Positions 26,666-32,771 of a DNA stretch of 64,000 nucleotides are shown in pieces. Every line of letters starts with the position of its first letter. Within the stretch, counting starts at the first letter, position 1. The stretch lies in the NCBI RefSeq assembly GCF_004521985.1, contig NZ_SBHZ01000011.1, positions 124,001-188,000 on the forward strand. Direction: 5' to 3'. The notes under the pieces are model-generated. The model did not search any database, was not told where the DNA came from, and saw only the letters and a program-made list of their open reading frames with translations. This stretch comes from Ectopseudomonas khazarica. GTDB taxonomy: Bacteria; Pseudomonadota; Gammaproteobacteria; Pseudomonadales; Pseudomonadaceae. A program made the position numbers and the translations under genes.

Positions 26666-26840
26666 AAACCCCTGCGTGTCGCTGTGCCAGCTCAACAGCG
26701 AGTTGTGCGTCAGCTGCGGGCGCACGCGCGAAGAAATCCGCAAGTGGCGGGGCATGAAACGCCCCGAGAAGATGGCCACCGTGCAGAAGGCTGCGGCGCG
26801 GATGAAGGTGATTGCCAGGAAGAAGGGCAAAAGTCAGTAG
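26649..26840 (+). CDS. DUF1289 family small Cys-rich protein
   Basis: A 63-residue protein beginning with GTG inside the preceding gene. It has the DUF1289 pattern of two paired Cys: PCVSLCQL and LCVSCGRT, followed by the helix EIRKWRGM and a basic tail. The Cys could bind iron-sulfur or zinc. Its stop codon TAG is the first base triplet of the REP palindrome that opens the RAYT unit, so the transposable unit lies exactly against the coding end. Confidence 0.88.
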   Translation: MAKDIENPCVSLCQLNSELCVSCGRTREEIRKWRGMKRPEKMATVQKAAARMKVIARKKGKSQ

Positions 26841-26865
26841 GGTGGATGAGGTCTTCTAATCCACC
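26837..26865. repeat. REP palindrome at 3' side of RAYT copy A
   Basis: GTAGGGTGGA head followed by TCCACC closing arm at 26860-26865. GGTGGA/TCCACC pair as the stem; the loop is variable. It begins at the stop codon of the DUF1289 gene. Confidence 0.75.
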
Positions 26866-26875
26866 AGCGGATAGC

Positions 26876-27406
26876 TCATTCACCATAGTTCCCCTCGACC
26901 TGCTCCGGCACAGCGCACCAATCTGCAGGGTAAATACCTTCCGCCACTGCCCGATGGAAACTCGAATAGGGCCAGTCCACCAGCCGTTGCACATGGCCGT
27001 GTTTGAGCGGGTTGTAGTGGATGTAATCGAAGTGGTGCTGGTAGTCGCGCTCGTCCCGAATCAGATGCTCCCAGTAACGTCGTTGCCAGATGCCCCGTTC
27101 GCGACGATTTTGCTGGCTGGCGTTGAGTGTTTCAGTGCTGGGCAAGCGCCTGCTGAAGGCGAACTTGATCACCTTCCAGCGCCGGGCGAAGTCGGCATCG
27201 CCTGGCGGGAGTGTCCACAGGCAATGCATGTGCTCGGGTAGCACCACCCAGGCATCGATATGAAAGGGATGGCGCGCTTTGGTGGCGCGTACCGTTTCGC
27301 GCAGCAGGTCGATTTCGCGGATCAGCAGATCGCTGCCACGATCGTGCAGGTTGACGGTGAAAAAGTAAGTGGCACCGGGAACGCGGGCGCGTCGGTAATT
27401 GGGCAT
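26876..27406 (-). CDS. REP-associated tyrosine transposase (RAYT), copy A
   Basis: A 176-residue Y1-HUH family protein, the domesticated relative of IS200 transposases that binds and cleaves REP hairpins as single-stranded DNA. HUH motif PEHMHCLW with His59 and His61; catalytic Tyr lies in the HFDYIHYNPLKHG region (about 125-137). Residue 111 is Tyr here but Cys in copy B. The N-terminus PNYRRARVPGATYFFTVNL is typical. Flanked on both sides by REP palindromes of one family. Complete and intact. Confidence 0.92.
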   Translation of the reverse strand: MPNYRRARVPGATYFFTVNLHDRGSDLLIREIDLLRETVRATKARHPFHIDAWVVLPEHMHCLWTLPPGDADFARRWKVIKFAFSRRLPSTETLNASQQNRRERGIWQRRYWEHLIRDERDYQHHFDYIHYNPLKHGHVQRLVDWPYSSFHRAVAEGIYPADWCAVPEQVEGNYGE

Positions 27407-27444
27407 GGCGGCTCATCCTTGAGCGCGGGTGATGCAAGAACCAT

Positions 27445-27527
27445 GGTGGACAAGCTGCGCGTTGTCCACCCTACAGGTCGAACCCCGCGTTCAGACCGTA
27501 GGGTGGATGACGCTCTTTTCATCCACC
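27445..27527. repeat. Pair of inverted REPs (BIME-like) at 5' side of RAYT copy A
   Basis: REP 27445-27474 reads GGTGGACA ... TGTCCACCCTAC and REP 27498-27527 reads GTAGGGTGGATGA ... TCATCCACC, so the two face each other with the conserved GTAGGGTGGA heads inward. This inverted pair is the BIME arrangement used by RAYTs. Confidence 0.8.
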
Positions 27528-27649
27528 ATTTGCGGGGGGATCTGCTAGCTACTGGCTTGGCGACCAGCGGCAGCCGCAGAGGAAGCACTCAAGCGGCGGC
27601 TTGGGATAGGTTACGGGTACCCATCGCAAGAACCACAGGAGTGATCGAC

Positions 27650-28030
27650 ATGATTGGTAAGCTCGTTTCCACCGGGTTTCGTGTGGCCACCTTACCCGCG
27701 CGGCTGACCTTTCGCAGCGTTCGCGCTCTGGCCATGACACCGGCTGAAGCCAGCCACCTGGTGGAGAGCATGCGCGATGCCTCGGAGCAGGCGGTGCGGG
27801 AAATTCAGCAGATGCTGGCCAGTGTCGATGCCGAGATGGGCTTCAAGGCCGCGCATCTGAGCCGGGAGGAGAAGCGCGCGGCCGCCGAACTGGCTCTGTA
27901 TGCCGCCGAACAGCACCTGAGCATGGCGGCGATCAATATCCTGCGCGCTGTCTGGCTGACGCTGAGTGCTGCCGAACCGCTGCTACCTGCCGAGCCTGCT
28001 GAGCGGATCGAACACCAGCCCAGGGACTGA
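27650..28030 (+). CDS. Hypothetical helical protein
   Basis: A 126-residue protein with a good AGGAG site before the ATG at 27650. No signal peptide; mostly amphipathic helix, with the central part (about 28-100) rich in Ala, Glu and Arg, reminiscent of phasin-like or polyhydroxyalkanoate-granule proteins, but that is only an impression. It begins 121 bp after the REP pair. Function unknown. Confidence 0.65.
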   Translation: MIGKLVSTGFRVATLPARLTFRSVRALAMTPAEASHLVESMRDASEQAVREIQQMLASVDAEMGFKAAHLSREEKRAAAELALYAAEQHLSMAAINILRAVWLTLSAAEPLLPAEPAERIEHQPRD

Positions 28031-28129
28031 GCCGCTCCGCCAAACCCGAGGTGTAGGCCGGCCGAGAGCATTGCTTCTCGACGTCCGTGACGGGCGATTG
28101 GGAGGGATCAGGCGTCCCTGTCGCGGTTT

Positions 28130-28525
28130 CTACTCGATGACATGCAACGTGTAGATTCGACGAGCGCGCAGCCCGGCGCACTGGGTGCCATAGGTACCCG
28201 CGGACAGGTGAACCTCATAGACGCCGGCCCAGGTTGGTGTTCCGACGATGAGGCCGTGGTTGTCTCTATCTTGATGTTCGATTCGCAGGCCTTCCGGCAG
28301 TGGCTGCGCGTCGCTCACGTAGATGCCATGAACCGGTGCCGGCGCATCGATGACTTCAAGGGCGACGCGGTACGGCTTACCCACCTGGCCTGTCGGCAGC
28401 GTCTCCGGCAGCAATGTCGGCGCTGTTCTCAGCGCGCAGTTTGCGGCCACGCTGCCGAGCATGGCCGTCTCGCAGCCCGCAAGGGACAGAGTAAGAAATG
28501 CGACCAGCAATGATCTTCGCAGCAT
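28130..28525 (-). CDS. Lipoprotein, candidate immunity protein
   Basis: A 131-residue lipoprotein with lipobox LAGC (Cys18) and an Ig-like mature domain (PAPVHGIYVSDAQPLPEGL, DNHGLIVGTPT, GVYEVHLSAGTYGTQCAG). It starts only 20 bp after the stop of the PAAR protein on the same strand, the usual effector-then-immunity order of type VI pairs. A periplasmic lipoprotein is the right place to neutralise an effector acting on the cell wall. Its paralogue is at 25654-26049. The immunity role is inferred from position and export, not from homology to a known immunity family. Confidence 0.72.
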   Translation of the reverse strand: MLRRSLLVAFLTLSLAGCETAMLGSVAANCALRTAPTLLPETLPTGQVGKPYRVALEVIDAPAPVHGIYVSDAQPLPEGLRIEHQDRDNHGLIVGTPTWAGVYEVHLSAGTYGTQCAGLRARRIYTLHVIE

Positions 28526-28545
28526 ATGAGTCCTTTCAATTTGGC

Positions 28546-29859
28546 TCAGGGGATTCGGCTAAATACCAAACCCCCGAAGATATCGGTCAGCAATTGAGAA
28601 AGCGTATAGCCGCGGCGCACCTGGTGTCCGACGTAACCCCAGGAAAACAGACTCGAGTTGCTGATTAGCTCGCTTGGGTTCGTTCCGCTGGTGATAGTTC
28701 CGCTGTGTGTCTGGGGCGCCTGCTCCCATGCGATCCAATGATTTTTGCCCACGCCCATACCGCCTTCGACCATCGTGGCACACACGAGCGAGGTGACATG
28801 ACTATGCGGCCCCAAGTGATTCAGGAGCTCCATGAACTGTGCTTGGTTGATGTGCCAGCGAAATTGGATATTGTCGAAAAGGACCGTCGCACCGGCCTGG
28901 ACGAACCAAGATTTGAGTTTGCTCGGAAGAGTGATACCTGCGACCTGGTCGCTCGGAGAGTCGTAATCCATAAAGGCATTTTCACTATCCCGCAGGCTGG
29001 CTAGAGATATCCAGTCAATCGCGGATATTCGGTCGCCTTCGGTGCTATCGCTGAAATTGGAAGGATTACGACAGTCATAGCTGGGCTTGATATGCAGCTG
29101 CCCAATTGTGGTTTCCCCCGTTTCCCACAGCTCGGTAATCGTTTGGGCGTAGAGGTCGGGCCTGTCCATCAATAAGGCATAGAAAAAAGCAGCGGGGCCA
29201 CACAGGCTCGTGTCTTGCTGATTGGGATAGGCGGCAATTCTGCTTTGGGATGTCGGCTGCTGACCATGCGCCTTGGCTACCCGTGTTCGCAGTTGATCGG
29301 TGATTTTGCTTTTCTCGAACGGGTCGGCGGCAGTCCCTATTGGATTGGCTGGGTCGTTGAAGACGCGGGCCGTAGTTTGCTGATTTTGGAAGCTATCGAG
29401 GATGGCCGTCGCAGCGCTCAGTGGATCAGCGGGAGCTGTCGCAGGCGGTGGCGTCTGAGCGGGTGCGACAAAATGGCTGGCTAATGCGGCAGCCGGGGCA
29501 GGGGCGCTTCGACTGTTCGCCAGAAGTGCCTGCGTCGCAGCGAAGGCGAGATTGGCTGGTGTGGCAAATGCGGATTGAACCACTGCATCTCCGATGATTA
29601 CCGTCCCGGAGCCGCCGACGATAACGCCGCCATGATTGGTGGTGCTCCCTATTGTCGTGGCCGGCATACCATTGATGAATACCGTGTTGGAAACAGCGCC
29701 TACAATTGAGCCACCACATGCTGTGGTGTCAGCCATTCTGGCTGCTGGAAGGCCATCGAAGATTACGTTGGGAGAGCCAGTTGCGACAGGGTTGTTGCCG
29801 TGACCTGGCAGAGGGCAAGAGGTTGGGTCAGATTGGCGAGCCGCCGGTTTTCCGCTCAT
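28546..29859 (-). CDS. PAAR protein with papain-like C-terminal domain, candidate type VI effector
   Basis: A 437-residue protein. Residues 1-95 are a PAAR spike domain (SGKPAARQSDPTSC, GMPATTIGSTTNHGGVI), which caps VgrG and carries effectors into target cells. Residues 96-185 are an Ala/Pro-rich linker and residues about 190-437 an unrecognised domain. In it, QDTSLCGPAAFFYALL places Cys220 at a helix start, and KNHWIAWEQ places His374, the order and spacing of papain-like peptidases and amidases. No signal peptide, as expected for type VI cargo. No T6SS core or vgrG gene is in the window. Lower GC than the flanks suggests transfer. Confidence 0.78.
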   Translation of the reverse strand: MSGKPAARQSDPTSCPLPGHGNNPVATGSPNVIFDGLPAARMADTTACGGSIVGAVSNTVFINGMPATTIGSTTNHGGVIVGGSGTVIIGDAVVQSAFATPANLAFAATQALLANSRSAPAPAAALASHFVAPAQTPPPATAPADPLSAATAILDSFQNQQTTARVFNDPANPIGTAADPFEKSKITDQLRTRVAKAHGQQPTSQSRIAAYPNQQDTSLCGPAAFFYALLMDRPDLYAQTITELWETGETTIGQLHIKPSYDCRNPSNFSDSTEGDRISAIDWISLASLRDSENAFMDYDSPSDQVAGITLPSKLKSWFVQAGATVLFDNIQFRWHINQAQFMELLNHLGPHSHVTSLVCATMVEGGMGVGKNHWIAWEQAPQTHSGTITSGTNPSELISNSSLFSWGYVGHQVRRGYTLSQLLTDIFGGLVFSRIP

Positions 29860-30049
29860 GAATGTAGCTCCCTGTTGAACGGCATGATCCTAACCCGCCA
29901 CCTATGTGCAATGTCTTGCACACCTCTGTCCTCACCAGCAGCAATGCGTACTGATTCACGATTATTCCGACGAGGACGGCTGAGCGCACTGGCGAACACT
30001 GGGAGTGCGCTTAGTGTCGGTCATTTGCTGCTACACGGGACGATAGTCT

Positions 30050-30079
30050 GTAGGGTGGATGACGCTCTTTTCATCCACC
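30050..30079. repeat. REP palindrome
   Basis: GTAGGGTGGATGA ... TCATCCACC, identical in its stem to the REPs beside the RAYT genes. It lies in the 279-bp gap between the PAAR gene and the first cassette-like ORF; nothing else is recognised there. Confidence 0.8.
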
Positions 30080-30126
30080 AACAGCGAGTGTTCGGCTACT
30101 CGCCAAAGCCGTACCCTTAACCAAAC

Positions 30127-30133
30127 GTTAGGC
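30127..30133 (+). other. attC core-like GTTAGGC
   Basis: GTTAGGC, matching the integron R' core GTTRRRY, five bases before the ATG of the next ORF, the normal position for the 5' edge of a gene cassette. Confidence 0.5.
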
Positions 30134-30138
30134 CATTC

Positions 30139-30672
30139 ATGTATCGACTCGGACACTTGGTAAATGGAGAATGGGTTGCCCATTCTTACGCTCCCGTCTT
30201 TAGCGCTGGTGATCGCATCGTTGCGGGAGTCCCAGGTAGCGACCCAACTATTTTTGAGCGCATGGTCGAGTGTATGGAGCCCCCGTATTACTTGCTCTAT
30301 GTGCTTCATACACCGCGAGGGGAAGCGGAGGCTGGGCGCTATCAAAGCGAGGCGCTTTCTCTCGCGGAAGTTAAAGGGTTCTTGGCTCAATTCAGTGAGT
30401 TTCTCTCAGGGGATGCCCGTTTTGACATTTGGGCGCACTCCCCGAGTGACAAAGGCACTATCGTCTGGGATCGTCACGATCAACTGTTCGCCTATGGCCC
30501 GATTGAGCAGTTCTCAGCTGCGCTGCAATCACTTGGCTTCAGTAAGGGCACCACATCAGTTCCCGTTCCACATGAGCATCACTACCGAGCGGAGCTTGAT
30601 CACTTTGCCCTGGACATAATTTCGTCATTCAACTGGTCATACTCGCCACTTCGACCAGAGGATGAGCAGTGA
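30139..30672 (+). CDS. Hypothetical protein, cassette-like ORF
   Basis: A 177-residue soluble protein, not recognised. It contains PPYYLLYVLHTPRGEAEAGRY and a C-terminal HEHHYRAELDHFALD region, rich in aromatic and acidic residues. No signal or membrane segment. Its start lies immediately after an integron-type core site and its stop about 90 bp before another, so it is probably a promoterless gene cassette. Lower GC than flanking genes. Confidence 0.6.
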   Translation: MYRLGHLVNGEWVAHSYAPVFSAGDRIVAGVPGSDPTIFERMVECMEPPYYLLYVLHTPRGEAEAGRYQSEALSLAEVKGFLAQFSEFLSGDARFDIWAHSPSDKGTIVWDRHDQLFAYGPIEQFSAALQSLGFSKGTTSVPVPHEHHYRAELDHFALDIISSFNWSYSPLRPEDEQ

Positions 30673-30771
30673 GCCTGTGGTCCGACATGGCGGTCAAGTG
30701 GACCACTACAAAAGCTGCGTTTGGGTTCCCTCCGCACTACGCGCCCCGGCCCCTTTACCTCTACGTTAGGC
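30673..30771 (+). other. Candidate attC site between cassette-like ORFs
   Basis: Ends in GTTAGGC (30765-30771), a perfect integron R' core, four bases before the next ATG. The interior holds GTGGTCC (30676-30682) and GGACCAC (30699-30705) as an inverted repeat. The matching R'' core near the left end is poor (GCCTGTG instead of GCCTAAC), so the site may be decayed. Confidence 0.45.
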
Positions 30772-30775
30772 GTTT

Positions 30776-31048
30776 ATGAAGAGCGTACACGTTGTACAGC
30801 ACATGCACATTCTCCCCTCTGGTGAGGAAAGTGTTTTATTCATTGGTGTCTACAGTTCATACGACGCGGCAGAGACTGCGATCAAGCGCTTATCTATGCA
30901 GCCTGGTTTCTGCAAATACCCGGAAATAATCGATCCAGACATCACCGACCAAGAACAAGGCTTTTACATTGATCTATATGAACTCGACAAAGATCACTGG
31001 TCTAGCGGGTACGTAACCATGGTTGGCGACAGTGAATATAAAGCGTAG
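30776..31048 (+). CDS. DUF7336-like small protein, cassette-like ORF
   Basis: A 90-residue soluble protein: VYSSYDAAETAIKRLSMQPG, then LYELDKDHWSSGYVT, a pattern I recall from small proteins often carried in integron cassettes and mobile regions. Function unknown. It lies between two attC-like core sites, in the same orientation as the preceding ORF. Confidence 0.6.
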   Translation: MKSVHVVQHMHILPSGEESVLFIGVYSSYDAAETAIKRLSMQPGFCKYPEIIDPDITDQEQGFYIDLYELDKDHWSSGYVTMVGDSEYKA

Positions 31049-31064
31049 GCACGCCTAGAAATGC

Positions 31065-31128
31065 GCTCAACGGTCACCACTGCGTTCGCTGGACGTCCAA
31101 AATCTTCGCTTTTGGCCGCCCGTTAGTC
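31065..31128 (+). other. Candidate attC site, right core disrupted by RAYT unit
   Basis: GCTCAAC (31065-31071) fits the R'' core RYYYAAC exactly. The interior has hairpin CCAAAA (31097-31102) / TTTTGG (31110-31115). The right core would be GTTAG followed by TC (31122-31128) and departs from GTTRRRY exactly where the identity with RAYT copy A begins (31125). Confidence 0.45.
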
Positions 31129-31821
31129 AGTAGGGTGGATGAGGTCTTCTTATCCACCAGCGGGTAGCTCATTCACCATAGTTCTCCTCGACCTGCTCCG
31201 GCACAGCGCACCAATCTGCAGGGTAAATACCTTCCGCCACTGCCCGATGGAAACTCGAATAGGGCCAGTCCACCAGCCGTTGCACATGGCCGTGTTTGAG
31301 CGGGTTGTAGTGGATGTAATCGAAGTGGTGCTGGTAGTCGCGCTCGTCCCGAATCAGATGCTCCCAGCAACGTCGTTGCCAGATGCCCCGTTCGCGACGA
31401 TTTTGCTGGCTGGCGTTGAGTGTTTCAGTGCTGGGCAAGCGCCTGCTGAAGGCGAACTTGATCACCTTCCAGCGCCGGGCGAAGTCGGCATCGCCTGGCG
31501 GGAGTGTCCACAGGCAATGCATGTGCTCGGGTAGCACCACCCAGGCATCGATATGAAAGGGATGGCGCGCTTTGGTGGCGCGTACCGTTTCGCGCAGCAG
31601 GTCGATTTCGCGGATCAGCAGATCGCTGCCACGATCGTGCAGGTTGACGGTGAAAAAGTAAGTGGCACCGGGAACGCGGGCGCGTCGGTAATTGGGCATG
31701 GCGGCTCATCCTTGAGCGCGGGTGATGCCAGAACCATGGTGGACAAGCTGCGCGTTGTCCACCCTACAGGTCGAACCCCGCGTTCAGACCGTAGGGTGGA
31801 TGACGCTCTTTTCATCCACCA
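31125..31821 (-). mobile_element. RAYT-REP unit, copy B
   Basis: Second copy of the 697-bp RAYT-REP unit, shifted by 4293 bp from copy A and over 99% identical by eye. It carries REPs at 31130-31158, 31738-31767 and 31791-31820 in the same arrangement. Confidence 0.85.
31169..31699 (-). CDS. REP-associated tyrosine transposase (RAYT), copy B
   Basis: A 176-residue RAYT identical to copy A except Tyr111 to Cys and Gly173 to Glu (QVEENYGE against QVEGNYGE). HUH motif (His59, His61) and the DYIHYNP segment are intact, so both copies should be active. Residue 111 is in the variable WQRR-x-WEH position, where E. coli TnpA-REP as I recall it has Phe, so the Cys change is probably not at the catalytic Tyr. 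Confidence 0.92.
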   Translation of the reverse strand: MPNYRRARVPGATYFFTVNLHDRGSDLLIREIDLLRETVRATKARHPFHIDAWVVLPEHMHCLWTLPPGDADFARRWKVIKFAFSRRLPSTETLNASQQNRRERGIWQRRCWEHLIRDERDYQHHFDYIHYNPLKHGHVQRLVDWPYSSFHRAVAEGIYPADWCAVPEQVEENYGE

Positions 31822-31852
31822 GCAGCGGTTGTCCGGGCTACTCCCTGCCACG

Positions 31853-32419
31853 TCATTGGCTGAGTTGTGTGATCAACGTGTCTGATGACATGACCTCGGC
31901 ATATTCGGCGCCCAGTATGGCCAGCGTCAGCGCATGAACGGTCGAGGCATCCCAGCCGGTCCCATCTGGTCCAATGACAGGTACCGCGGTCGTGGCATCC
32001 GAAGGGAGGATGATGGTGTACCCGAGTGCTTTTCCGGCGCGGACCGTGGCATCCATGCTGTTATGGATCACAACGCCAGTTAGAACGATACGTTTTGCTT
32101 GCATTCCTTTTAAAACAGCATCCAGCCGGGTGCCTATGAATGCGCAGTTTTCATTCTTGATGATGACGGCTTCGCCCTCTGTCGGCGCGACTTCCTTTTT
32201 GATGCCATTCCAGGGGCCATGAAGGTAATAGCTGGAGGTGGGCGTCTTTTCATCGTGCTTTACGTGAAGAACTGGCCAGCCGTTCGAGCGCCAGAATTGC
32301 AGGAGGCGTTGGATGACGGACAGGTAATCGGGGTGACTTTTGTCATTCCAGACGGGCTGATCGATGGCGTCCTGAACGTCGAGGATGATCAAGGGGATTT
32401 GGCCGGGCGTGTCCTGCAC
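31853..32419 (-). CDS. Isochorismatase-fold hydrolase with Ser in place of catalytic Cys
   Basis: A 188-residue protein of the cysteine hydrolase superfamily. ILDVQDAID supplies Asp14, IIKNENCAF supplies Lys88, and the position of the nucleophile reads GVVIHNSMDATVRAG with Ser121 where the classic motif has Cys. The start is taken as the GTG at 32417-32419, which has a strong AAGGAG site nine bases upstream; longer frames start with TTG or ATG without a site. It may be a hydrolase using Ser, or a non-catalytic relative. Cytoplasmic, substrate unknown. Confidence 0.78.
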   Translation of the reverse strand: MQDTPGQIPLIILDVQDAIDQPVWNDKSHPDYLSVIQRLLQFWRSNGWPVLHVKHDEKTPTSSYYLHGPWNGIKKEVAPTEGEAVIIKNENCAFIGTRLDAVLKGMQAKRIVLTGVVIHNSMDATVRAGKALGYTIILPSDATTAVPVIGPDGTGWDASTVHALTLAILGAEYAEVMSSDTLITQLSQ

Positions 32420-32771
32420 TTTCGTCGTCTCCTTACGATGAGTGTTTAGTGTGCTGCAGTGTTTCTCCATCAACAACCATGGCCGCCCGATAGCTTTCAG
32501 GGCTGCGGTGTGGTGGCCCGGCTGTGACGCTCTGCGTAGTCTGCTGGCGTAGGGTGGATGACGCTCTTTTCATCCACCATCAGCGATGGTTCGGGCTACT
32601 CGCTTTGACGATGGCATGAACCTTGGTGGACAAGCTTCGCGTTGTCCACCCTACAAATTACGCGAGCAGGTATTCCTGCGTCGGGTGGATGAAGCTCTTT
32701 TCATCCGCAGTTAGGAATTGTCCGGCTACTCGCTGATATCCTATTCGAGTCCATCATTAGTTATATAGACG
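32420..32771. repeat. Intergenic region with three REP palindromes
   Basis: This 352-bp gap holds REPs at 32549-32578 (GTAGGGTGGATGA ... TCATCCACC), 32625-32654 (opposite orientation, GGTGGACA ... TGTCCACCCTAC) and 32680-32707 (degenerate, ending CATCCGC). The first two repeat the BIME arrangement of the RAYT flanks without a RAYT gene. Nothing else is recognised. Confidence 0.75.

Follow-up and report, generated by a model that had tools for sequence, protein, structure and literature searches.

A probable displaced and decaying fragment of a chromosomal integron array between REP and RAYT elements in Ectopseudomonas khazarica

Within a 64,000-base stretch of the Ectopseudomonas khazarica genome (hereafter, the window), two small open reading frames alternate with three sites related to the attC recombination sites of integrons, in the order attC1, ORF1, attC2, ORF2, attC3 and all on the forward strand (Table 1). 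On the left, what remains of attC1 abuts a REP unit, and on the right attC3 runs into a RAYT unit, i.e., a gene for a REP-associated tyrosine transposase flanked by REP elements, a second copy of which lies a few kilobases upstream. The original prediction, made from the letters alone, had described GTTAGGC motifs at 30127–30133 and 30765–30771, five and four bases before the start codons of ORF1 and ORF2, and an exact RYYYAAC (GCTCAAC) at 31065–31071 with a hairpin centre after it, all of which we could confirm.

Table 1. Features of the locus, in window positions
Feature	Positions	Strand	Remarks
RAYT unit, copy 1	26832–27528	-	REP-associated tyrosine transposase gene plus terminal REP elements; duplicate of copy 2
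REP unit	30050–30104	+	GTAGGGTGGATGACGC...CATCCACC unit, similar to further units of the window and of relatives; directly adjoins what is left of attC1
attC1	30105–30133	+	3' part retained (some of the centre, L', and R' GTTAGGC), R'' and L'' lost
ORF1	30139–30672	+	cassette open reading frame, 177 aa, uncharacterised
attC2	30680–30771	+	whole, decayed by model prediction (R'' GTCCGAC, R' GTTAGGC); 24.4 bits with R1
ORF2	30776–31048	+	cassette open reading frame, 90 aa, DUF7336 (PF24024, 28.1 bits, cut-off 25)
attC3	31053–31126	+	5' part retained (R'' GCCTAGA, L'' GCTCAAC, the centre, and L' as far as GTTAG), R' lost
RAYT unit, copy 2	31125–31821	-	REP core starts at 31130; transposase gene 31169–31699

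Taken by itself, the motif layout does not exceed chance expectation. The window contains 51 copies of GTTRRRY (59.3 expected), and the motif stands 2–12 bases before the ATG of a frame of ≥60 aa in 7 cases within its 64,000 bases, compared with 9 cases in the 104,006 bases of six comparison loci. The three sites stand above chance because of homology and a covariance model, and not because of this layout. The model, R1, was built without any window sequence. Its 27 attC, all from relatives, were selected manually, with a view to diversity, out of 84 candidate sequences (some plainly false) and further attC contexts; the bit thresholds of other attC models are not transferable to its scores. 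At E ≤ 10, R1 matched the window in three places, exactly those of the original prediction, with 24.4, 15.0, and 12.2 bits, and the first of these, attC2 (E 8e-4), is the sole site significant by the model alone. The absence of any attC score above background, named beforehand as the outcome that would speak against attC sites here, was thus not what we observed. A scan at Rfam gathering thresholds found no attC.

For the two outer sites, the evidence came from BLAST comparison with relatives, including a set of 20 integron loci (L069–L088, some of them short contig ends) from 17 same-genus genomes. From 30105 on, the base right after the REP unit, 27 of the 29 bases of attC1 match an attC in L074. 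Its last 20 bases (30114–30133) are an exact CCCTTAACCAAACGTTAGGC, a frequent attC ending in same-genus integron loci, with 28 exact copies spread over 10 of the 20 loci. The R1 alignment at this site (30115–30133, 12.2 bits, E 1.3 in the window) is forced on a part site and not significant by the model alone, and attC1 is accepted as attC-derived because of its BLAST match to attC of relatives. Similarly, attC3 aligns with an attC in L075 at 91.2% identity over 68 columns (E 2e-17) and with two further attC, in L080 and L074, and all three alignments stop at 31126. Its R1 match (31053–31135, 15.0 bits, E 0.23 in the window) is again not significant by the model alone, and it is likewise these BLAST matches that led us to accept the site. 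The relatives' attC aligned beside it read R''..CGCTCAAC..CGTTAGCTTAATCGTTA.., and because of this box order GCTCAAC at 31065, previously read as the R'' box of the third site, is L'', and the GTTAG after it is L'; the actual R'' is GCCTAGA at 31053. Motif reading alone can thus misplace attC boxes. The site is broken inside L' and continues, with a two-base overlap, into the RAYT unit. Overall, all three sites are of attC origin. The alternative of motifs that by chance precede two ordinary ORFs, with which the motif counts and the lack of R1 attC around relatives of ORF1 (see below) would agree, is refuted by the attC matches to relatives: the exact 20-base match, the match of 91% over 68 columns, and the confinement of R1 window matches to these three places leave it with next to no probability.

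These site ends also bear on the suggestion that an integrase acting in trans had inserted cassettes at a secondary, attG-like chromosomal site. Such an event would account for a GTTAGGC at the start of each ORF, integrases are present in the genus, and insertion at sites that are neither attC nor attI is described in two earlier papers (PMC2426708, PMC12444791). It should, however, leave the first G/TT preceded by host sequence and the right end formed by a complete attC. Instead, the left end consists of 29 bases of another attC (27 of 29 matching), with a REP unit and this attC part, and no attI, upstream of the first cassette, and the right end stops inside L' rather than at the R' crossover point. 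Since neither end is a host/cassette junction, secondary-site insertion, which the original prediction had offered as one of two possibilities, is contradicted and in our view highly improbable.

attC2 retains all four boxes, yet in the R1 alignment it has mispaired positions, and its predicted folding is poor. With the R box forced on the bottom strand, its folding probability, computed with a simplified home-made version of a published idea, was 1.5e-5, whereas the 27 attC in R1 ranged from 2e-4 to 0.93, every one of them above attC2. When folded freely, attC2 was weaker than 191 of 200 shuffles. In a genome-wide R1 search (150 of 3564 candidates scored), it reached E 0.068 and ranked seventh of eight matches at E ≤ 1, the others being two on contig C11, four on contig C14, and one on contig C3. 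These models indicate that attC2 is a decayed attC.

We then consider the integrase. None above the curated TIGR02249 cut-off was found in the assembly, whose 67 contigs leave gaps where one could hide. The genome yielded sub-cut-off matches only, the strongest of which is by eye a XerD-like ORF; none reached E 1e-40, and a genus IntI protein used as query gave nothing stronger than E 2e-17. At E ≤ 0.001, TIGR02249 also matched in 14 of 14 control genomes, with none over the cut-off. Integrases of this family do occur around this genome: in searches that drew on samples of the genus or family, 120 of 348 sampled family genomes had a match at E ≤ 1e-40 and 111 of 348 one over the curated cut-off.

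Further attC clusters exist in the same genome, with four sites on C11 and five on C14 at E ≤ 1 when each was scanned alone. An attC at 109953 on C11 reached 86.6 bits with R1 and a folding probability of 0.24. Each cluster (L093:8586-11105 on C11, L102:8860-12524 on C14) lies a few kb from a short frame resembling a phage-type tyrosine recombinase. These two frames (L006 on C11, L005 on C14) were tried as IntI remnants, with 33.7 and 39.4 bits, and rejected, as by eye they look like phage-type tyrosine recombinases, of which we take them to be pieces. Because attC scans scored 150 candidates per genome, all attC counts are lower bounds: among eight chosen genomes, sites at E ≤ 0.1 numbered at least 66 in G177, 21 in G063, 12 in G133, 9 in G202, and 1 in G061, and with 150 candidates scored per genome none was found in G071, G237, or G534. 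Those of G177 are spread over many contigs (C2, C5, C7, C9, C13, C19, C20, and others), and this genome has three integrase matches.

Could the array then still be in service, its cassettes mobilised in trans by an integrase encoded on a plasmid or in sequence missing from the assembly? An assembly in 67 contigs leaves room for such a gene, and the C11 site at 109953 suggests that sites elsewhere in the genome look usable. On the other side stand the folding probability of attC2, lower than the whole range of relatives' attC, the truncation of attC1 and attC3, and the lack of an integrase over the cut-off in the assembly, and on this balance we regard continued service as very unlikely.

The cassette ORFs themselves offer little functional information. 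For ORF1, no family was found in Pfam, NCBIfam, or PADLOC, and its structure model (pLDDT 81) had no match in the PDB at E ≤ 0.001; the model of ORF2 (pLDDT 64) was too poor for a structure search. For both ORFs, sequence searches found no solved relative, nothing in PADLOC, no relative on viral contigs, and at best E 0.03 to 0.09 in PHROGs, and a plasmid search returned one record for ORF1 (L014) and two for ORF2. Clear relatives of ORF1 occur in Lysobacter (69%), Eleftheria, Acidovorax, Comamonas, and two other same-genus genomes, and a further weak one (E 7.5e-4) in the genus. Finding the ORFs always outside any cassette association had been named in advance as evidence against the cassette reading, and this outcome was half observed: R1 detected no attC at E ≤ 10 around any of the six clear ORF1 relatives, whereas a class-1-integron-type attC remnant (L011:4655-4710) lies behind the Lysobacter one. 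In a plasmid comparison covering the Lysobacter flank, 4623 plasmid records matched, with 54 to 56 of 86 bases among the matches listed, and in the one record examined the match sits just after the qacF gene of a class 1 integron. To judge from these sequences, one of the six ORF1 relatives likely has a cassette past. ORF2 has three relatives in the 348 family genomes, at 43 to 46% identity and with no attC by R1. Relatives of ORF2 at L104:52-1734 and L105:659-1731 sit in rows of small ORFs that by eye resemble polymorphic-toxin and immunity gene islands.

Compared with known systems, the fragment resembles a CALIN in that same-strand ORFs, one per attC unit, lie between successive attC and the assembly has no integrase over the cut-off. 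It differs in standing below or at the edge of the usual CALIN minimum of two attC (PMC9892861, PMC12444791) and in having REP/RAYT elements at both edges. With one whole attC and two truncated ones against that minimum, its standing as a CALIN is doubtful. The idea of an attC cluster lacking integrase, the other possibility of the original prediction, therefore holds as to attC ancestry and the missing integrase, and needs amending in that the locus is a remnant with a single whole site. The fragment shares with the same-genus chromosomal integrons (L069–L088) the attC types of the attC1 3' arm and the nearly whole attC3; unlike these, it has no intI, attI, or continuous array, and thus lacks the intI and attI beside an array that define a complete integron. 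In about half of Xanthomonas genomes, CALINs have been reported at a distance from the integrase locus (PMC12444791), and reports of intI loss and pseudogenisation exist as well (PMC2426708).

The adjacent unit at 31125–31821 qualifies as a RAYT/REPtron, i.e., a RAYT (TnpA-REP) gene with its REPs. Its gene scores 202 bits with REP_Tyr_transpos (cut-off 80), it carries GTAG-type REP elements with cores at 31130, 31758, and 31791, and its two copies are 99.28% identical over 697 bp (5 mismatches, no gap). It departs from a simple REPtron setting in bordering the attC fragment, where a role as mover is unsupported. Both copies and 9 of the 11 REP cores of the window fall within 6 kb (26837–32645). 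Gene order around this interval differs among G063, G177, and the window. In G063, similarity to the left flank (95.8%) extends to window position 30046, just short of the REP unit, the cassettes are absent, and the same left segment is found on the other side of an isochorismatase gene. In G177 (14 kb looked at), one RAYT stands directly before the isochorismatase gene, so that, compared with this genome, the window has an additional segment flanked by two RAYT copies. Neither G063 nor G177, both of which differ by larger rearrangements, offered a true empty site, and these differing layouts imply that the region has been rearranged in several ways.

Taken together, we consider it very probable that 30105–31126 is a piece, roughly 1 kb long, of what was once a chromosomal integron array, and that it was displaced by rearrangement into a REP/RAYT-rich region and is decaying there. 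The piece would comprise part of an attC, a first cassette, a whole attC, a second cassette, and part of a further attC. From established integron biology, an active IntI would first have assembled the cassettes by attC recombination; the piece would next have been separated from its array and placed in the rearranged region, most likely through illegitimate or homologous recombination at REP/RAYT copies, a route suggested by the position of both breakpoints at REP/RAYT borders and by the 99.3% duplication. After displacement the sites would have decayed, and the two genes would consequently now behave as fixed genes. The attC matches to relatives, the two further attC clusters in the same genome, and the integrases of 111 of 348 family genomes support this reading; counting against it are the lack of significance of attC1 and attC3 by R1 alone, the weakness of attC2 genome-wide, and the lack of an empty site.

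RAYT itself might have catalysed the move, although we found no support for this. In other bacteria, RAYT is guided by GTAG and cuts single-stranded REP at CT or CA dinucleotides (PMC8266576). Since both breakpoints fall within attC and coincide with REP/RAYT borders, next to a freshly duplicated RAYT unit, REP/RAYT elements might more generally form an integrase-independent exit route carrying array pieces out of integrons, an idea we consider very improbable. It is disfavoured by the 36 other integron or cluster loci, none of which had a REP core and a genus-type attC 3' arm 150 bases or less apart. A pattern search for a REP hairpin end joined to an attC 3' arm returned 2 of 348 genomes, E. 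khazarica included. The other one, in G101, was rejected: its locus has no REP core and the text after CCAAACG differs, so it is not an attC. REP cores near attC were seen in 5 of 14 cluster stretches, 0 of 2 clusters in the same genome, 1 of 20 integron loci, and 1 of 4 control stretches, numbers too small to conclude from. The 36-locus result speaks against REP borders in attC as a repeated pattern, and no title or abstract beginning among the literature retrieved on REP or RAYT with attC describes REP borders inside attC.

Integron leftovers of this kind are already known. The present locus shows that an integrase-less, cassette-like pair can be traced to a broken array and not to off-target insertion. 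It is also one more example of an array decaying and dispersing in a clade where attC are scattered. The sole feature that might lead beyond this is the presence of REP/RAYT borders inside attC, a prospect not favoured by the 36-locus control.

Left of the fragment, the window encodes a PAAR-domain protein (28546–29859, reverse strand), possibly a type VI secretion effector to judge from its sequence, whose C-terminal part includes an LCGPAA stretch that, on visual inspection, resembles cysteine peptidases. A match to the Pseudomonas sRNA family P10 of Rfam (61.6 bits, 29765–29836, reverse strand) lies inside this frame on the same strand, and the P10 family may in part describe PAAR coding sequence.
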